Assembly (NCBI GenBank): GCA_005791875.1
Contig: SXTU01000045.1
Span: 1-32,702, forward strand
DNA length: 32,702 nt
Source: Verrucomicrobiales bacterium
Lineage (GTDB): Bacteria; Verrucomicrobiota; Verrucomicrobiia; Limisphaerales; SXTU01
Reading direction: 5' to 3'
The position numbers and the translations under genes are program-made. The notes beneath the pieces were generated by a model that had not been told where the DNA came from, did not search any database, and worked only from the letters and a program-made list of their open reading frames with translations. This document shows, in pieces, positions 16,132-27,700 of this stretch; the first letter of the stretch is position 1; each line of letters starts with the position of its first letter.

Positions 16132-17460
16132 ATGACGACCTTTCAATATCGCGCACTGCATGCGAATGGCTCCGTTGCCGAGGGCGTCCTCGAAGCGAAC
16201 GGACGGCAGGAGGCGTTCAAGCAGATGGAGTCGCGCGGTCTGCGGCCCATCAACCTGACCGAGCGCGGGGCCGGCAGCACCAAGACCATCACCGCGCCGT
16301 CGAAGCCCGCGGCGAAAGAAGCCAAGGCTCCCGCGAAGCCTCAGTCGAAAGACACCTCTCCGAAGGACGCAAAAGCCGCCGCCAACATCCCCGCGCCCAC
16401 CAGCCTGAGTTTCGGCACGCCGAAGATTTCAGCGCGTATGCTGGAGAACTTCACGCGCCTGCTCTCCAGCCTGCTCGCGGCGGGCGTGCCGTTGAGCCGC
16501 GCGCTCGTCATCCTTCAGCGCGAGGCGTCCAGCCCCGTCGCGCAGGCGAAGTGGAAGGAAGTTCACGACCTCGTCGTGGACGGCATGACGCTCGCCGACG
16601 CGATGGCGAAATCGCCGGATGTTTTTCCGCGCGTTTATGTCGCAATGGTCGAGGCTGGCGAGACCGGCGGCTTCCTCGACGTGGTGCTCAAGCAAATCGC
16701 CGACTTCCAAGCCAGCGAGAAGGAAATGAAGAGCAAGGTCATGACCGCGATGCTCTACCCGGCCATCCTGCTCGTGCTCGCGCTGGGCGTGCTCATCTTC
16801 CTGCTGGTGTTCTTCATCCCGCGCTTCCAGCTCGTCTTCCAGGGCTTCGGCGCGAAGCTCCCGCTGCTCACCCAGATCATCATCGGCGCGAGCGACGTGC
16901 TGCGCAGCTACGGCGTGCTGCTGTTGTTGGGTGTCTTCATCAGCGGCTACCTCGCGCGGAACTGGGTGACTTCGTCCGCCGGCCGCCGCGCGTGGGAAGG
17001 CTTCATTCTCCGTGTGCCGACCATCGGCAGCCTCGTCGCGCAGTTCGCCATGTCGCGCTTCTGCCGGATGCTGGGGACGCTGCTGGGCGCGGGCGTGCCG
17101 CTCATCGCCTGCCTGAACGTCGCGCGCCGCTCCATCGGCAACCAGATACTCGTGGACGCCGTGGCGCATTCCATTGACCGCGTGAAGGAAGGCAAGGCGC
17201 TTGGCCCCAGCCTCGGCGACTGCCGTGTGCTCTTCAGCGGCTCGACGCTGGAAATGATTTCCGTCGCCGAGGAGAGCGGGAAGCTCGATGGCGAACTCAT
17301 CCGCATCGCCGACGTGACCGAGGGCGATCTCGACCGGCAGTTGAAGACGGCGGTGGCGATGGCCGAGCCGCTGATGCTCTTCGTCATCGCCGCGTTCATC
17401 GGCACCATCTTCATCGGCATGGTCATCCCGATCTTCACTTTGCAGGAGCACATCAAGTAA
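16132..17460 (+). CDS. gspF: Type II secretion system inner-membrane protein GspF
   Basis: FTRLLSSLLAAGVPLSRALVILQ..., VAMVEAGETGGFLDVVL, FCRMLGTLLGAGVPLIACL, MISVAEESGKLDGELIRIADVTE. Confidence 0.95.
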   Translation: MTTFQYRALHANGSVAEGVLEANGRQEAFKQMESRGLRPINLTERGAGSTKTITAPSKPAAKEAKAPAKPQSKDTSPKDAKAAANIPAPTSLSFGTPKISARMLENFTRLLSSLLAAGVPLSRALVILQREASSPVAQAKWKEVHDLVVDGMTLADAMAKSPDVFPRVYVAMVEAGETGGFLDVVLKQIADFQASEKEMKSKVMTAMLYPAILLVLALGVLIFLLVFFIPRFQLVFQGFGAKLPLLTQIIIGASDVLRSYGVLLLLGVFISGYLARNWVTSSAGRRAWEGFILRVPTIGSLVAQFAMSRFCRMLGTLLGAGVPLIACLNVARRSIGNQILVDAVAHSIDRVKEGKALGPSLGDCRVLFSGSTLEMISVAEESGKLDGELIRIADVTEGDLDRQLKTAVAMAEPLMLFVIAAFIGTIFIGMVIPIFTLQEHIK

Positions 17461-17480: not shown

Positions 17481-17929
17481 ATGAACATGAAAGTCAGAAT
17501 CCAGAATCCAGAATCCAGAATCGCGCCACGCGCGGCTTCACGCTGATCGAGCTACTCCTCGTGCTGGTCATCCTCGGCATCCTCGCGGCCATCGTCGTCC
17601 CGAAGTTCTCCGGGCGCACCGAGCAGGCGCGTGAGACCGCCGCGAAGACGCAGATCGCCGGCTTCAGCACCGCGCTGGACGCCTTCGAGGTGGACACTGG
17701 CGGCTACCCGAAAGGCAGCGAGGGCTTGATGGACCTCGTCCAGGCCCCGCGCGAGGCGACGGGCTGGAAAGGCCCCTACATGAAAGACATGCCGATGGAC
17801 CCCTGGGGCCGCCCCTATGTCTATGTCTGCCCGGGTCGCAACAACCAGAGCAGCTACGACATTTCCTCTCTCGGCGCGGACGGCCGCGAGAGCGAGGACG
17901 ACGTGACCAACTGGTCGAAGGCGAAGTAA
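17481..17929 (+). CDS. gspG: Type II secretion major pseudopilin GspG; reading frame interrupted at a heptamer repeat
   Basis: Conserved frame from about 17522: NRATRGFTLIELLLVLVILGILAAIVVPKFSGRTEQARETAAKTQI...YPKGSEGLMDLVQAP...GPYMKDMPMDPWGRPYVY...SLGADGRESEDDVTNW. The ATG at 17481/17487 is 2 nt out of phase with GFTLIE and hits TGA at 17544. Confidence 0.85.
17495..17522 (+). repeat. Perfect heptanucleotide tandem repeat (CAGAATC)x4
   Basis: CAGAATC CAGAATC CAGAATC CAGAATC read directly, between the gspG ATG and the prepilin cleavage motif. Confidence 0.98.
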
Positions 17930-17939
17930 CGCAACGCCG

Positions 17940-18596
17940 ATGAAGGCCTCGCCGCAACAAACAACCCCTGTGCGCTCGGAGCGCGGACGCCGACCGGTTC
18001 CGCGTTCCGCAATCCGCGTTCAGCGTTTGCCGAGCGCCTTCACCCTCATCGAGCTCATCCTCGTCATGGCGCTCATCACCATCGTGGTGGGCGTCTCGAT
18101 GCCGTCGCTGAAAGGCTTCTTCAAGGGCCGCGACCTCGACTCCGAGGCGCGCCGGTTCCTCTCGCTCACGCGCTACGCCGCGAGCCGCTCGGTGGCCGAG
18201 GGCATTCCCATCGAGCTTTACGTGGATACGCAGCAGAGGCTCTACGGCCTCCGTGCGCAGGCGGGCTTTCTGGAGAACGACACCAAGCGCGTGCAATACA
18301 AGCTGCCCGAGGATCTCAGCTTTGAAGTCACCGCCGCCCCGGCGAAGAAAGTTTCCGGCGAGGAGAATCCCGACGATGACACCGACCTCGCCAATCCCAC
18401 GGACGTTTCCGCCAACGGCAATCCGATCAAGACCATCCGCTTCTACTCCGACGGCTTCATCGGCAGCAAAAGCCCCGCTGCCATCATCCTGCGTCAGCGT
18501 GGCGCGGACGAGTCCGCCGAGGGCGACGCCGTCGCCATCGCTCAAAGCCCCACGCGTTTGAACTATGAGATTCGCACCATCCAGCCACAGCGCTAG
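17940..18596 (+). CDS. gspH: Type II secretion pseudopilin GspH-like
   Basis: PSAFTLIELILVMALITIVVGVSMPSLKGFFKGRDLDSEARRFLSLTRYAASRSVAEGIPIELYVD. Confidence 0.85.
   Translation: MKASPQQTTPVRSERGRRPVPRSAIRVQRLPSAFTLIELILVMALITIVVGVSMPSLKGFFKGRDLDSEARRFLSLTRYAASRSVAEGIPIELYVDTQQRLYGLRAQAGFLENDTKRVQYKLPEDLSFEVTAAPAKKVSGEENPDDDTDLANPTDVSANGNPIKTIRFYSDGFIGSKSPAAIILRQRGADESAEGDAVAIAQSPTRLNYEIRTIQPQR
17998..18025 (+). repeat. Degenerate heptamer repeat in gspH leader
   Basis: TTCCGCG TTCCGCA ATCCGCG TTCAGCG. Confidence 0.6.
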
Positions 18597-19077
18597 TGGG
18601 GCAGGCTTCCAGCCTGCCGCTACGGGCGTCTCGCCCGCGCTGGCCTGTGTGCAAAACGCGGGCAGGATGCCCGCAGCGGCAGCTGGGACGGCTGCCCCAC
18701 TAGGGCGTCGCCAGTGCGCCGCGTTCACGCTGGCCGAGGTGCTGGCGGCGCTGCTGTTCATGGCCATCGTCATCCCGGTGGCGCTGGAGGGCCTGCGCAT
18801 CGCGAGCCTCGCCGGGCAGGTCGGCGAGCGGAAGTCCGTGGCCGCGCGCGTGGCCGACCGCGTCCTGAGCGAGATGGCGATCACGGGTTCGGGGCCGGGC
18901 GGCAACGACAGCGGCTCGATCGTCGAGAGCCAGCATGAATTCCAGTGGACCGTCCAGTCCGTCGCGTGGGCCGAGGACGCCGCGTTGCAGGAGACGACGG
19001 TGCGTGTCGTGTATTTCGTCCAGGGCAACGAATATGAGGTGTCGGTGAGCACGCTGATGGAGGGGGGGACGCTGTGA
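18565..19077 (+). CDS. gspI: Type II secretion pseudopilin GspI-like
   Basis: QCAAFTLAEVLAALLFMAIVIPVALEGLRIASLAGQVGERKSVAARVADRVLSEM. Alternative start ATG at 18667 inside the repeat element gives a shorter leader MPAAAAGTAAPLGRRQCA. Confidence 0.8.
   Translation: MRFAPSSHSASGAGFQPAATGVSPALACVQNAGRMPAAAAGTAAPLGRRQCAAFTLAEVLAALLFMAIVIPVALEGLRIASLAGQVGERKSVAARVADRVLSEMAITGSGPGGNDSGSIVESQHEFQWTVQSVAWAEDAALQETTVRVVYFVQGNEYEVSVSTLMEGGTL
18593..18703. repeat. Palindromic REP-like element with internal hairpins
   Basis: Ends CTAGTGGGGCAG...CTGCCCCACTAG; internal hairpins GGCAGGCT-TCC-AGCCTGCC, CGGGCG-TCT-CGCCCG, GCGGGCA-GGA-TGCCCGC. Confidence 0.85.
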
Positions 19078-20099
19078 AATTCGTTCTGTCCAAAGTCCAA
19101 AGTCGTTCGGCTGCCGGACGCGCCTTCTTCTCCCTCTCCCCCACGGGGGGAGAGGGCCGGGGTGAGCGGGCCGCGCGTGCAGCAGACAGTTGCACTTCCA
19201 AATCCACCGCGTCCCGTTCGGCTCGAACTACCGGACGCGTCCCTTGCTCCGCAGCCCGCCCCCTCACCCTAGCCCTCTCCCCCGATGGGGGCGAGGGGAC
19301 CCGCGCTCAGTGCGCCGTTCGGCCTCGGATTCGCCATTCGCCATTCGCCATTCGCCATTCACTTTCCGCCTTCACCCTGCTGGAACTTCTCATCGCCGTT
19401 GTCGCCTTTGCCATCGTGCTGGCGGCCATCAACGGCGTGTTCTACAGCGGCCTGAAGCTGCGCAACCGCTCCGCCGCGTCGCTGGAAAAATCCCTGCCGC
19501 TCACGCAGGCGCTCACCATCCTCAAGCGCGACCTTGCCAGCATCGCGCCGCCGTCCACGAACACGACGAAGCTCATCGGCGAGCTGCAATCCTCGCCCAC
19601 CGGCACCAGTGGCAGCCAGCCGCAGTTCGGTTCGCTGGCCGGCGCGACCGGTGGCATGAGCGGGCAGTCCTCGCAGGTCAGCCCGGATTTCTACACGCTC
19701 TCGGGCCTGCTCGACTCCGACTCGCCGTGGCCGAACGTGCAGAAGGTGGCCTACCTGCTCGTGGACTCCACGAACCGCAGCGCGCTGGGCAAGGACCTCA
19801 TCCGCGCCGTCACGCGCAACCTGCTGCCCGCGGGGGGCATCGAGGAGGAGCCGGTCGAGCAACTCCTCCTCACGGATGTTTCCGATGTGCTGTTTTTCTT
19901 TTTCGACGGCACGGACTGGCAGGAGTCGTGGGACTCGACGGCGGACGAGACGATGAAGCTCCCGCGCGCGATCAAGGTGCAGTTGCAGATGGCATCCGAG
20001 GACCGTGCCAGCCAGCAGCCGCCAATTGAGCTGGTCGTGCCGCTGACCGTCGAGGCCAGCACGAACACGACTTCTCAGGCGACTGGAGGGGCGCAATGA
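19074..20099 (+). CDS. gspJ: Type II secretion pseudopilin GspJ-like with about 99-aa leader
   Basis: LSAFTLLELLIAVVAFAIVLAAINGVFYSGLKLRNRSAASLEKSLPLTQALTILKRDLASI; GTG start overlaps gspI stop. Confidence 0.8.
   Translation: MKFVLSKVQSRSAAGRAFFSLSPTGGEGRGERAARAADSCTSKSTASRSARTTGRVPCSAARPLTLALSPDGGEGTRAQCAVRPRIRHSPFAIRHSLSAFTLLELLIAVVAFAIVLAAINGVFYSGLKLRNRSAASLEKSLPLTQALTILKRDLASIAPPSTNTTKLIGELQSSPTGTSGSQPQFGSLAGATGGMSGQSSQVSPDFYTLSGLLDSDSPWPNVQKVAYLLVDSTNRSALGKDLIRAVTRNLLPAGGIEEEPVEQLLLTDVSDVLFFFFDGTDWQESWDSTADETMKLPRAIKVQLQMASEDRASQQPPIELVVPLTVEASTNTTSQATGGAQ
19132..19302. repeat. Inverted pair of CCCTCTCCCCC/GGGGGAGAGGG hairpin repeats in gspJ leader
   Basis: CCCTCTCCCCC-AC-GGGGGGAGAGGGCCGGGGTGAG (19132 onward) and, inverted, CCCTCACCCTAGCCCTCTCCCCCGATGGGGGCGAGGGG (19261 onward). 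Confidence 0.8.
19329..19360 (+). repeat. Perfect heptanucleotide tandem repeat (GCCATTC)x4 plus partial copy
   Basis: ATTC GCCATTC GCCATTC GCCATTC GCCATTC, 7 nt before the GCC encoding the -1 residue of GspJ. Confidence 0.98.
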
Positions 20100-24754: not shown

Positions 24755-26443
24755 ATGAAATCCAACCTCGCCATCATCCTCTCAGTCAGCCTCGCCGGCT
24801 CAGTGCTGGCCCAGACGCCACCCGCGCCCGCGCCCGCACTGGCCCCCGCCGCGCCCGCCGCGCCCAAGAGCGACGACGAGCGCCCGGCCGGCCTTGCTGC
24901 CGCGCTCGCGGCGGCAGCGGCCGAGAAGGCCGCCGAGGCGGCTCGCCCGCCCACGCCCGCCGCGCCGAAGGAGCCAGTCAAGCGCGTCATTAACGAGACG
25001 GATAAGGGGATGCGCTTGAACTTTCGTGGTGTGCCGCTGGAGTTGGTCCTCAATTACTTCTCCGAGGCTGCCGGCTTCATCATCGTGCCCACGGTCGGCG
25101 ACATCCGCGGCCGGGTGGATGTGTGGAGCGAGGACGTGCTCACCAAGGACGAGGCCGTGGCCGTGCTCAACAACGTCCTCTCTCGCAACGGCTACGCTGC
25201 CTTTCGCGTGGATCGCACGCTCAAAATCGTGAACAAGGATGAGATGAGCCGGCAGCCCCTCCCGGTCAAACCCGGCGGCGACCCGGAGAAAATCCCGGCG
25301 ACCGAGAACATGGTCACGCAGATCATCCCCATCAAGTTCATCAGCGCCGAACAGGTGATCAAGAACTTCGACTCCCTCCTGCCCACCTCCTCGATCATGA
25401 CCGCGAACGCCGGCGCCAACGCGCTCGTGATCACCGACACGCAGATCAACATCAAGCGCGTGGCCGAGATCATCAAGGCGCTGGACACGCCCGTGGCCAG
25501 TGTCTCCGCCATCCGCGTGTTCACGCTCAAGTATGCCGATGCTAAAACGCTCGCGACCGTGGTGAAGGATCTCTTCGTCACTGCCGAGTCGCGCGGCGGC
25601 GCACAGCAGGGCGGCGTCAACCCCATGCAGCAAATGTTTCAAAGGTTTGGCGGCGGCGGTTCCAGCCGCGGAAGTGGCGGTGGTGGTGGTAGTGCCGGCG
25701 GCACCGGTGGTCGCGTGACCACGCCCAAGGTCGTCGCGTCGGCGGACGAGTTGAGCAACTCGCTGATCGTGAGCGCGCCCGAGGATTCGATGACGATGAT
25801 CGAGGACGTGATCAAGCAGGTAGACGTGCCGGTCGAGGACGTGACGGAGATCAAGGTCTTCCGCCTGAAGCATGCGAGCGCCGACGACACCGCCACGATG
25901 ATCAAGAACCTCTTCCCCGACACGAGCACGCAGGGTGGACGGACCGGCGGACGGACCGGCGGCAGCAGCTTCTTCGGCGGCTTCCGCCCGCCCAGTGGCG
26001 GCGGCACTGGCGCGGCAGCCGGCCAGAGCGAGCGAGCGCTCAAGCAGAACAAAGTTGTGGCTGTGGCCGACAACCGCACCATGTCCGTCATCGTCACTGC
26101 GTCGCCCACGCTCATGGAGCAAATCACGGGGATGATCACCCAGCTCGACTCCGATCCATCGAAGCAGCAGAAGGTCTTCGTCATCCCGGTGGAGAACGCC
26201 GACCCGGCGCAGATGCAGCAAATCCTGCAAGCTCTGTTCCCAACTCAGAGCGGTCGGACTGCGCAGTCGTCCAGCGGCCGGACAGGCACAGGCGGCTTCG
26301 GCACAGGCACCACCACGCGCAACAACGGCGGCCAAAGCAGCCCCAGCGGCCGGTCGGGCAGCAGCGGTTTTGGTGGTAACAGCAGTGGCGGCAGCAGTGG
26401 CTTTGGTGGTGGTAACAGCGGCGGCTTCGGCGGCGGCCGCTAG
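24755..26443 (+). CDS. gspD: Secretin N-domain protein (N-terminal part of split GspD)
   Basis: Signal peptide; tandem N-domains (LNFRGVPLELVLNYFSEAAGFIIVP..., TQIIPIKFISAEQVIKNFDSLLP..., IRVFTLKYADAKTLATVVKDLF..., IKVFRLKHASADDTATMIKNLF..., KVFVIPVENADPAQMQQILQALFP) ending in Gly/Ser-rich tail and TAG; no secretin core. Confidence 0.88.
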   Translation: MKSNLAIILSVSLAGSVLAQTPPAPAPALAPAAPAAPKSDDERPAGLAAALAAAAAEKAAEAARPPTPAAPKEPVKRVINETDKGMRLNFRGVPLELVLNYFSEAAGFIIVPTVGDIRGRVDVWSEDVLTKDEAVAVLNNVLSRNGYAAFRVDRTLKIVNKDEMSRQPLPVKPGGDPEKIPATENMVTQIIPIKFISAEQVIKNFDSLLPTSSIMTANAGANALVITDTQINIKRVAEIIKALDTPVASVSAIRVFTLKYADAKTLATVVKDLFVTAESRGGAQQGGVNPMQQMFQRFGGGGSSRGSGGGGGSAGGTGGRVTTPKVVASADELSNSLIVSAPEDSMTMIEDVIKQVDVPVEDVTEIKVFRLKHASADDTATMIKNLFPDTSTQGGRTGGRTGGSSFFGGFRPPSGGGTGAAAGQSERALKQNKVVAVADNRTMSVIVTASPTLMEQITGMITQLDSDPSKQQKVFVIPVENADPAQMQQILQALFPTQSGRTAQSSSGRTGTGGFGTGTTTRNNGGQSSPSGRSGSSGFGGNSSGGSSGFGGGNSGGFGGGR

Positions 26444-26470: not shown

Positions 26471-27700
26471 TTGAAAGGCATAATGATGAAACATGGTTCG
26501 ATGAAAGCGATTGGTTTGGGATGGCTGCTGGCCGGTGCGCTGGCGGGGACCGCGCACGCGCAATTCCAAGGTTTTGGCGGAGGCGGCTTTGGCGGTGGGG
26601 GCACTGGCGGCGGGGGCGCGGCCAGCCGCACCCAGGCCGGCGGTGGCCAACCGCTGGGCGGGGCGGACATTTCCTTCGACCCGGAGACGCGCAACATGAT
26701 CGTCGTCACGGACGACAAGACCCTGGCCGAAATCAAGAAGGTGATCTCCGGCCTGGATCGCCCTTCGCCGCAAGTGCTCATCAAGGTGATCTTCCTGGAG
26801 GCCACGTATCGCAAGGACTCCGACATCGGCTTCGCCGGCGGCTACAACCACAACCCCAACCCCGGCGGCAACAGCGGCGTCGCGGGCCAGGGATTTGGCA
26901 GCGCCCCTATCAAGGATCTCGCGAGCGTCGCCGCGCTGGCCGCACCGGGGGCGGGCATCTACTCCATCCTCGGTAATGACTTCCAGGCGACGCTCCGGGC
27001 GATCGCCACGGCGGGCAAGACTGAGGTGCTCTCCCGCCCGTCCATCCTCGCGCGCAACAACCAACTGGCCACCATCAGCCTGGGCCAGCAGGTGCCGCTC
27101 ATCACGAACACGCGCTTCGACAACTTCGGCAACCAGATCAACACCATCACCTACCAAAGCGTGGGCGTGAACTTGAGCGTCACGCCCTTCATCTCGTCGG
27201 ACGGCAACGTGGAGATGGTCGTCACCCCGGAGATTTCCTCGCTGGCCGACAAGTCGCAGTGGGTCGCGATCTCCGGCGGCACCAACGCCGTCTCCGCGCC
27301 AGTCATCAACTCCCGCATCGCCACCACCACCGTCGTCGTGCCCGACGGCCAGACGGTTGTCATCGGCGGCCTGATGGAGAACACGCAGAACGACTCGGAG
27401 AGCAAGGTGCCGCTGCTTGGCGACATTCCGCTGCTGGGAAATCTTTTCAAGCGTCGTGTGAAGGACAATGTGAAGCGCGAGCTGATGATTTTCCTCACGC
27501 CGACCATTGTGAAAGCACCGTCGCAACTGGCGGACATGACCACGGACGAGAAGCTGAACAAGAAGATCGCCCCGAAGGCCTTCCCGCAGGAGGACCTGGA
27601 CCGCTTCCTCGAAAGCCTGCCGCTGAAGGACCCGCCGCCGGCCGTCAAGCCCGCGGCTGCGCCCGCTGTTCCTGCGCCTGCCAGGCCCACGCCCAAATAG
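26471..27700 (+). CDS. gspD: Secretin core protein (C-terminal part of split GspD)
   Basis: Second signal peptide MKAIGLGWLLAGALAGTAHA|Q; Gly-rich; half N-domain ISFDPETRNMIVVTDDKTLAEIKKVISGLDRP; secretin core QVLIKVIFLEATYR...VLSRPSILARNNQLATISLGQQVPLIT...SVGVNLSVTPFI...VVVPDGQTVVIGGLMENTQND..VPLLGDIPLLGNLFKRR. Confidence 0.92.
   Translation: MKGIMMKHGSMKAIGLGWLLAGALAGTAHAQFQGFGGGGFGGGGTGGGGAASRTQAGGGQPLGGADISFDPETRNMIVVTDDKTLAEIKKVISGLDRPSPQVLIKVIFLEATYRKDSDIGFAGGYNHNPNPGGNSGVAGQGFGSAPIKDLASVAALAAPGAGIYSILGNDFQATLRAIATAGKTEVLSRPSILARNNQLATISLGQQVPLITNTRFDNFGNQINTITYQSVGVNLSVTPFISSDGNVEMVVTPEISSLADKSQWVAISGGTNAVSAPVINSRIATTTVVVPDGQTVVIGGLMENTQNDSESKVPLLGDIPLLGNLFKRRVKDNVKRELMIFLTPTIVKAPSQLADMTTDEKLNKKIAPKAFPQEDLDRFLESLPLKDPPPAVKPAAAPAVPAPARPTPK

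Follow-up and report, generated by a model that had tools for sequence, protein, structure and literature searches.

A heptamer array parts the gspG start codon from its reading frame in one verrucomicrobial genome, while arrays in its relatives and in core genes stay in frame

Results

The window, that is the whole stretch of 32,702 nt that was analysed, is contig 278 of a 4.7-Mb draft genome, and its nearest named matches are MAGs labelled mostly Verrucomicrobia, Pedosphaera or Limisphaerales. It carries a type II secretion (T2SS) locus in which gspG is accompanied by gspE, gspF, gspH-K, a PilM/PilN-like gene and a secretin in two pieces. The identity of gspG is certain: the conserved frame on the forward strand, from the Gly codon of the G|FTLIE motif to the stop codon (17534..17929), scores 140.3 bits against TIGR01710, the family of the type II secretion major pseudopilin (curated cut-off 88.85), and Pfam T2SSG and N_methyl also match its product. 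As in that family, the protein is whole from G|FTLIE to the C-terminal loop and its gene stands in a gspEFGHIJK run, but it differs in having its start codon out of frame and one residue fewer in the C-terminal loop. By profile search the remaining T2SS genes of the window are open frames with family matches, with GspF scoring below its equivalog cut-off. The gspD gene is split, as it is in congeners too, here into two adjacent secretin ORFs at 24755-26443 (Secretin_N, GspD N0) and 26471-27700 (C-terminal Secretin domain). The latter has an apparent signal peptide of its own, and this second part also occurs in seven further genomes of the genus, where, as in the window, it mostly shows a stop or a short frame.

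The upstream gene gspF ends with a TAA stop codon (17458..17460, forward strand) 20 nt 5' of ATG 17481, which shares one frame with ATG 17487. These codons are followed by a perfect tandem heptamer array, (CAGAATC)x4, at 17495..17522 on the forward strand; two-unit CAGAATC matches with at most two mismatches were observed 3 times against 0.14 expected, a number reached in none of 100 shuffles. The Gly codon of GspG lies 53 nt 3' of ATG 17481, and the frame of the two ATGs is a 21-codon ORF (17481..17546, forward strand; MNMKVRIQNPESRIAPRAASR) that closes at TGA 17544-17546, inside the gspG coding region. A start scan of the 159 nt over which the gspG frame stays open upstream of 17534 found no ATG, GTG or TTG, and the earliest start listed for this frame, GTG 17561, is beyond the cleavage site. 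This assembly therefore holds a pure non-triplet tandem repeat between the start codon and the mature gspG coding sequence, as expected of a contingency locus, and no in-frame class III prepilin leader with ATG, GTG or TTG before G|FTLIE. The positions given in the preliminary description, and the out-of-frame start itself, are confirmed, and its calculation that five copies would make a leader of 60 nt and two copies one of 39 nt is right.

We found no Shine-Dalgarno-like motif between the gspF stop codon and ATG 17481, so translation of gspG is probably coupled to that of gspF. A near-cognate start codon (table 11) does lie near the motif in the frame of gspG: ATC at 17513..17515 on the forward strand is a candidate start that would give a seven-residue leader, IQNRATR-G|FTLIE. 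Expression of gspG from this codon would fit the constraint that the gene still shows, and the leader would have a length and charge suitable for a prepilin, but the codon lacks a ribosome-binding motif, relatives conserve the upstream ATG 17481, and ATC is usually a very weak start, so that we regard this explanation as very improbable. Ribosomal frameshifting was rejected, as a -1 shift would be required and no slippery run was apparent by eye, and so was an RNA structure at the array, whose stability is not in excess (z +1.24).

The dN/dS of gspG is 0.11-0.19 against the three closest congeners. The gene thus still looks constrained, which suggests that it was recently functional, or is still functional in part of the population, and, given this constraint, that the frame break would be recent. 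The C-terminal loop (DGRE-SEDDV, 17879..17911, forward strand), which by its position we take to be the calcium loop of solved GspG, is one residue shorter than in 122/122 other orthologs, where it reads DGRE(G)xEDD with DGREGTEDD conserved. This unique deletion hints at relaxed constraint at the locus, though only weakly because solved GspG proteins vary in the length of this loop.

Leaders of gspG were compared in the ten other genomes of the genus (congeners), nine of which have the gene. In these the in-frame ATG stands 60 nt before the Gly codon (63 nt in one genome), so that the leader of the window's allele, at 60 - 7 = 53 nt, is exactly one heptamer under the congener length, which is the length calculated above for five copies. 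Congener G004 has the same CAGAATC unit, in four perfect and one degenerate copies, and is in frame at 60 nt; at the leader site of the others there are AACTCGC or AACTCTC arrays, or degenerate heptamers. A comparison of copy number in sister genomes had been proposed as a check of phase variation, and it revealed no alternation of ON and OFF copy numbers. G004 also has a second, divergent gspG-like gene (L040, G004:C116:6422-6784; 54% identity) immediately 3' of gspG. The public record of one congener contig (L061) names Akkermansia muciniphila, but the genome falls among those of the genus and is probably a mislabelled MAG.

The census was extended to 123 gspG orthologs of the order, 122 of which are decidable for their start. 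Heptamer arrays are present in the leaders of 22/123, with units that differ widely and include CAGAATC, TCCGCCG, CCAATCG, ACTCAAG, ATTCGTC, AAATCCG, TTCAGCC and GTCGAAG. Twenty of these array-bearing orthologs keep the frame, the window's allele does not and one is undecidable; the last, L296, had been considered a second out-of-frame ortholog and was dropped, as its contig ends 99 nt 5' of the motif. The window's allele is also the only one of the 122 in which a start is absent. In-frame leaders can be long, with ATG 213 nt upstream in L223 and 153 nt in L235. The leader of L224, sister to L223, has 87 nt, so that the pair differs by 126 nt, equal to 18 heptamers or 42 codons. If the frame were free, about 1/3 of the arrays would be expected in frame against the 20/21 observed (approximately 4e-9 as calculated by hand, a value overstated by the non-independence of sisters), and we therefore conclude that selection holds the frame of gspG. 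Nothing in the 123 orthologs suggests that relatives alternate between ON and OFF alleles, and the coexistence of common ON and common OFF copy numbers that marks contingency loci is not seen (1/21 decidable out of frame). Along the gspG loci, period-7 arrays are concentrated in the leaders and around the point where gspG meets gspH; mature gspG and the 400 nt at the 3' end of gspF that were examined have none, and arrays of other periods hardly occur.

Since the frame break belongs to a single assembled allele, an error of assembly or consensus has to be weighed, in which case the leader in living cells would have five copies and be in frame at 60 nt. The congener leaders at 60 nt, the solitary position of this allele among 122 and the quality of the assembly (a 314-contig draft, 90.7% complete and 3.2% contaminated) speak for such an error. 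However, contig ends overlap by exactly 141 nt, as is typical of a short-read assembly with k=141, so that an array of 28-35 bp is contained in a single k-mer; arrays of up to 34 bp elsewhere in the assembly are in frame within conserved genes, and no contig ends inside an array. The k-mer size and the in-frame arrays argue against a systematic error at arrays, and are still compatible with an isolated consensus error or with a population of mixed alleles. On balance we hold an erroneous four-copy consensus to be rather unlikely. An assembler capping array length was also rejected, as relatives have a similar length range and contig ends in arrays were not found.

Heptamer arrays are a general feature of this genome. 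In about 1.06 Mb of it, sampled as stretches, there were 33-34 period-7 arrays of at least three copies, whereas period 6 had 10, period 8 had 2 and periods 10-12 had none, an excess of the kind that defines heptanucleotide simple sequence repeats (SSRs). By a mechanical ORF call, coding stretches hold 20 of 34 heptamer arrays, 12 lie outside them and 2 at their edges, so that placement is not mainly intergenic. A dispersed CAGAATC family was rejected, the three-unit pattern occurring in this genome at gspG only, as was a second gene broken by an array, the suspicious array pair appearing to lie between two separate genes.

Among the 82 prepilin-motif genes of the genome, clear leader arrays were found in gspG, gspJ and a second cluster on contig 18, and a degenerate one in gspH; gspG is the only array-bearing prepilin gene without a usable start. 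The array is not a general feature of prepilins, as most other prepilin genes are free of arrays and have a short leader with a start. In gspJ, (ATTCGCC)x4.6 at 19329..19360 (forward strand) is in frame with GTG 19074, a start that overlaps the gspI stop codon here and likewise in congeners, and in gspH the degenerate (GTTCCGC)x4.4 at 17997..18027 (forward strand) is in frame with ATG 17940. The gspJ leader (19074-19367) has 98 codons against 27 in two congeners and is full of dispersed repeats, with palindromic arms at 19132-19184 and 19245-19297 besides the heptamer array. The gspI leader (18590-18706) contains an imperfect inverted repeat with 50-nt arms that are 80% complementary, another dispersed repeat type that is likewise in frame.

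Arrays are not restricted to dispensable, mostly surface genes. In-frame heptamer arrays occur in the genome's own aroA, glnS, lpxB and hrpB (hosts confirmed by NCBIfam; only these four were named), and in congeners CAGAATC arrays are in frame within aroA and within genes that, from their protein sequences, appear to be uvrA and pheT. In a loop of AroA, heptamers were present in all congeners examined (L390/L375 for the own genome; L373-L381; L394), at near-constant length and always in frame, with site lengths that are all multiples of three. The unit at this site is AAAAATC in the own genome, CAAAATC in G008, CAAACTC in G006, GGCAAAA in G001, G002 and G004, and CAGAATC in G003, and in G005 and G007 the site holds instead a hairpin with CCCCAGA in its loop. 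Outside the genus the loop is mostly shorter or unrelated, with a degenerate array in L397, from another family. At fixed sites in uvrA (L347, L348) and pheT (L362-L372), congeners have in-frame heptamer arrays or degenerate remnants of them, and at that site the own pheT has a palindromic repeat instead of heptamers.

Discussion

The preliminary description proposed that gspG is phase variable. What holds of this proposal is that the window's allele is one unit out of frame relative to nine congeners, that slippage by one unit would be the simplest origin of the difference and that the allele lacks an ordinary start. A true contingency locus would go further, with slippage between four and five copies toggling GspG and the type II system and with the array maintained for switching. 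The geometry fits this, as a non-triplet unit separates the start codon from the mature protein and is one unit off the in-frame length; heptamers switch genes elsewhere (neuO, hmw1A), and homogenised units in related arrays imply that slippage occurs. However, 20/21 decidable array-bearing relatives are in frame, the other array-bearing prepilin genes of the genome have a usable start, the GspG loop carries a unique deletion, and four to five copies are a short tract for fast switching. Like arrays in housekeeping genes, where switching would be senseless, also count against a contingency reading, which we consider decidedly unlikely.

The explanation that we favour, with modest confidence and for one assembled genome, is a sporadic OFF or loss-of-function allele of gspG that lost one heptamer by slippage in a tolerant leader and is not an evolved switch. 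The array would be one of the short heptamer repeats found genome-wide (3-5 copies, many units), which are normally in frame and would be hosted by tolerant stretches such as prepilin leaders, surface loops and N-termini. Because prepilin peptidase is expected to cut the leader off GspG, the sequence of the leader would be nearly free and its reading frame not. Most likely, slipped-strand mispairing shortened the leader from 60 to 53 nt, by one unit, and so put ATG 17481 out of step with the conserved frame. The allele in its assembled form would yield a 21-residue peptide and no GspG, and type II secretion would not work in carrier cells; gspG would then be a non-essential gene, and slippage could in principle revert the OFF allele. 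The constraint that gspG still shows, and the open, family-matching frames of the other T2SS genes in the window, count against this explanation. If the four-copy allele is real, the loss of seven bases should silence an entire secretion system. An out-of-frame heptamer, then, should not automatically be taken for a contingency locus.

The in-frame arrays in core genes are more surprising than the gspG break. Core genes are expected to be purged of non-triplet repeats, an expectation challenged by in-frame arrays in AroA, a DNA-repair protein and aminoacyl-tRNA synthetases, and what would surprise a specialist is the turnover of units at near-constant length in essential genes. The stepwise series of aroA units (CAAACTC, CAAAATC, AAAAATC) suggests mutation together with homogenisation, although each single-unit step would break the frame. 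One tentative and rather doubtful idea is that tolerant sites in essential genes (loops of AroA, PheT and UvrA) and in prepilin leaders are standing heptamer slots, in which units are replaced between species while length and frame remain nearly constant; renewal would then go beyond one-unit slippage, and the gspG break would be a visible miss. The core-gene arrays are a natural system for asking how units turn over without breaking essential frames. A limited and partial search of the literature found no description of in-frame heptamer arrays in Verrucomicrobia core genes.

Both the over-representation of heptamers and phase variation by heptamers are already known, and the gspG allele is a variation on them. 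Heptanucleotide SSRs are over-represented in prokaryotes, and in most genomes no other long unit is as abundant (Mrazek et al. 2007, summarised by PMC4679880 and PMC4692102); Lin and Kussell, cited by PMC4692102, report an enrichment of SSRs near N-termini. The prokaryotic heptanucleotide SSRs described in these papers, and cyanobacterial STRR, resemble the present arrays in their unit of 7, often about four copies, and dispersal over many loci, but the families studied there are mainly intergenic (TAACTGA of Beggiatoaceae, GGGAATC of Xanthomonas; PMC4679880, PMC4692102). In contrast, more than half of the present arrays lie inside ORFs, in frame and in core genes too, with units that vary by locus and species. 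Heptamer contingency loci such as neuO of E. coli K1 and the hmw1A promoter of H. influenzae share with the gspG array a non-triplet unit whose copy number sets surface or secretion expression. At those loci, both ON and OFF alleles occur among strains and switching has been observed experimentally, whereas at gspG all relatives are ON, with short tracts, and copy-number variation is not seen in the present data. Rickettsia palindromic elements, which are 100-150 bp long and belong to few families, are likewise repeats tolerated in frame within essential proteins. The present arrays differ from them in being tandem heptamers of 28-35 bp with many units, with a hairpin at some sites (own pheT; aroA of G005 and G007). 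Paired inverted heptamer arrays around a short GC-rich centre, hairpin-like with heptamer arms, were also observed (L033, L303, L144:10868-10947), and such pairs occur in gspH leaders and at intergenic sites.
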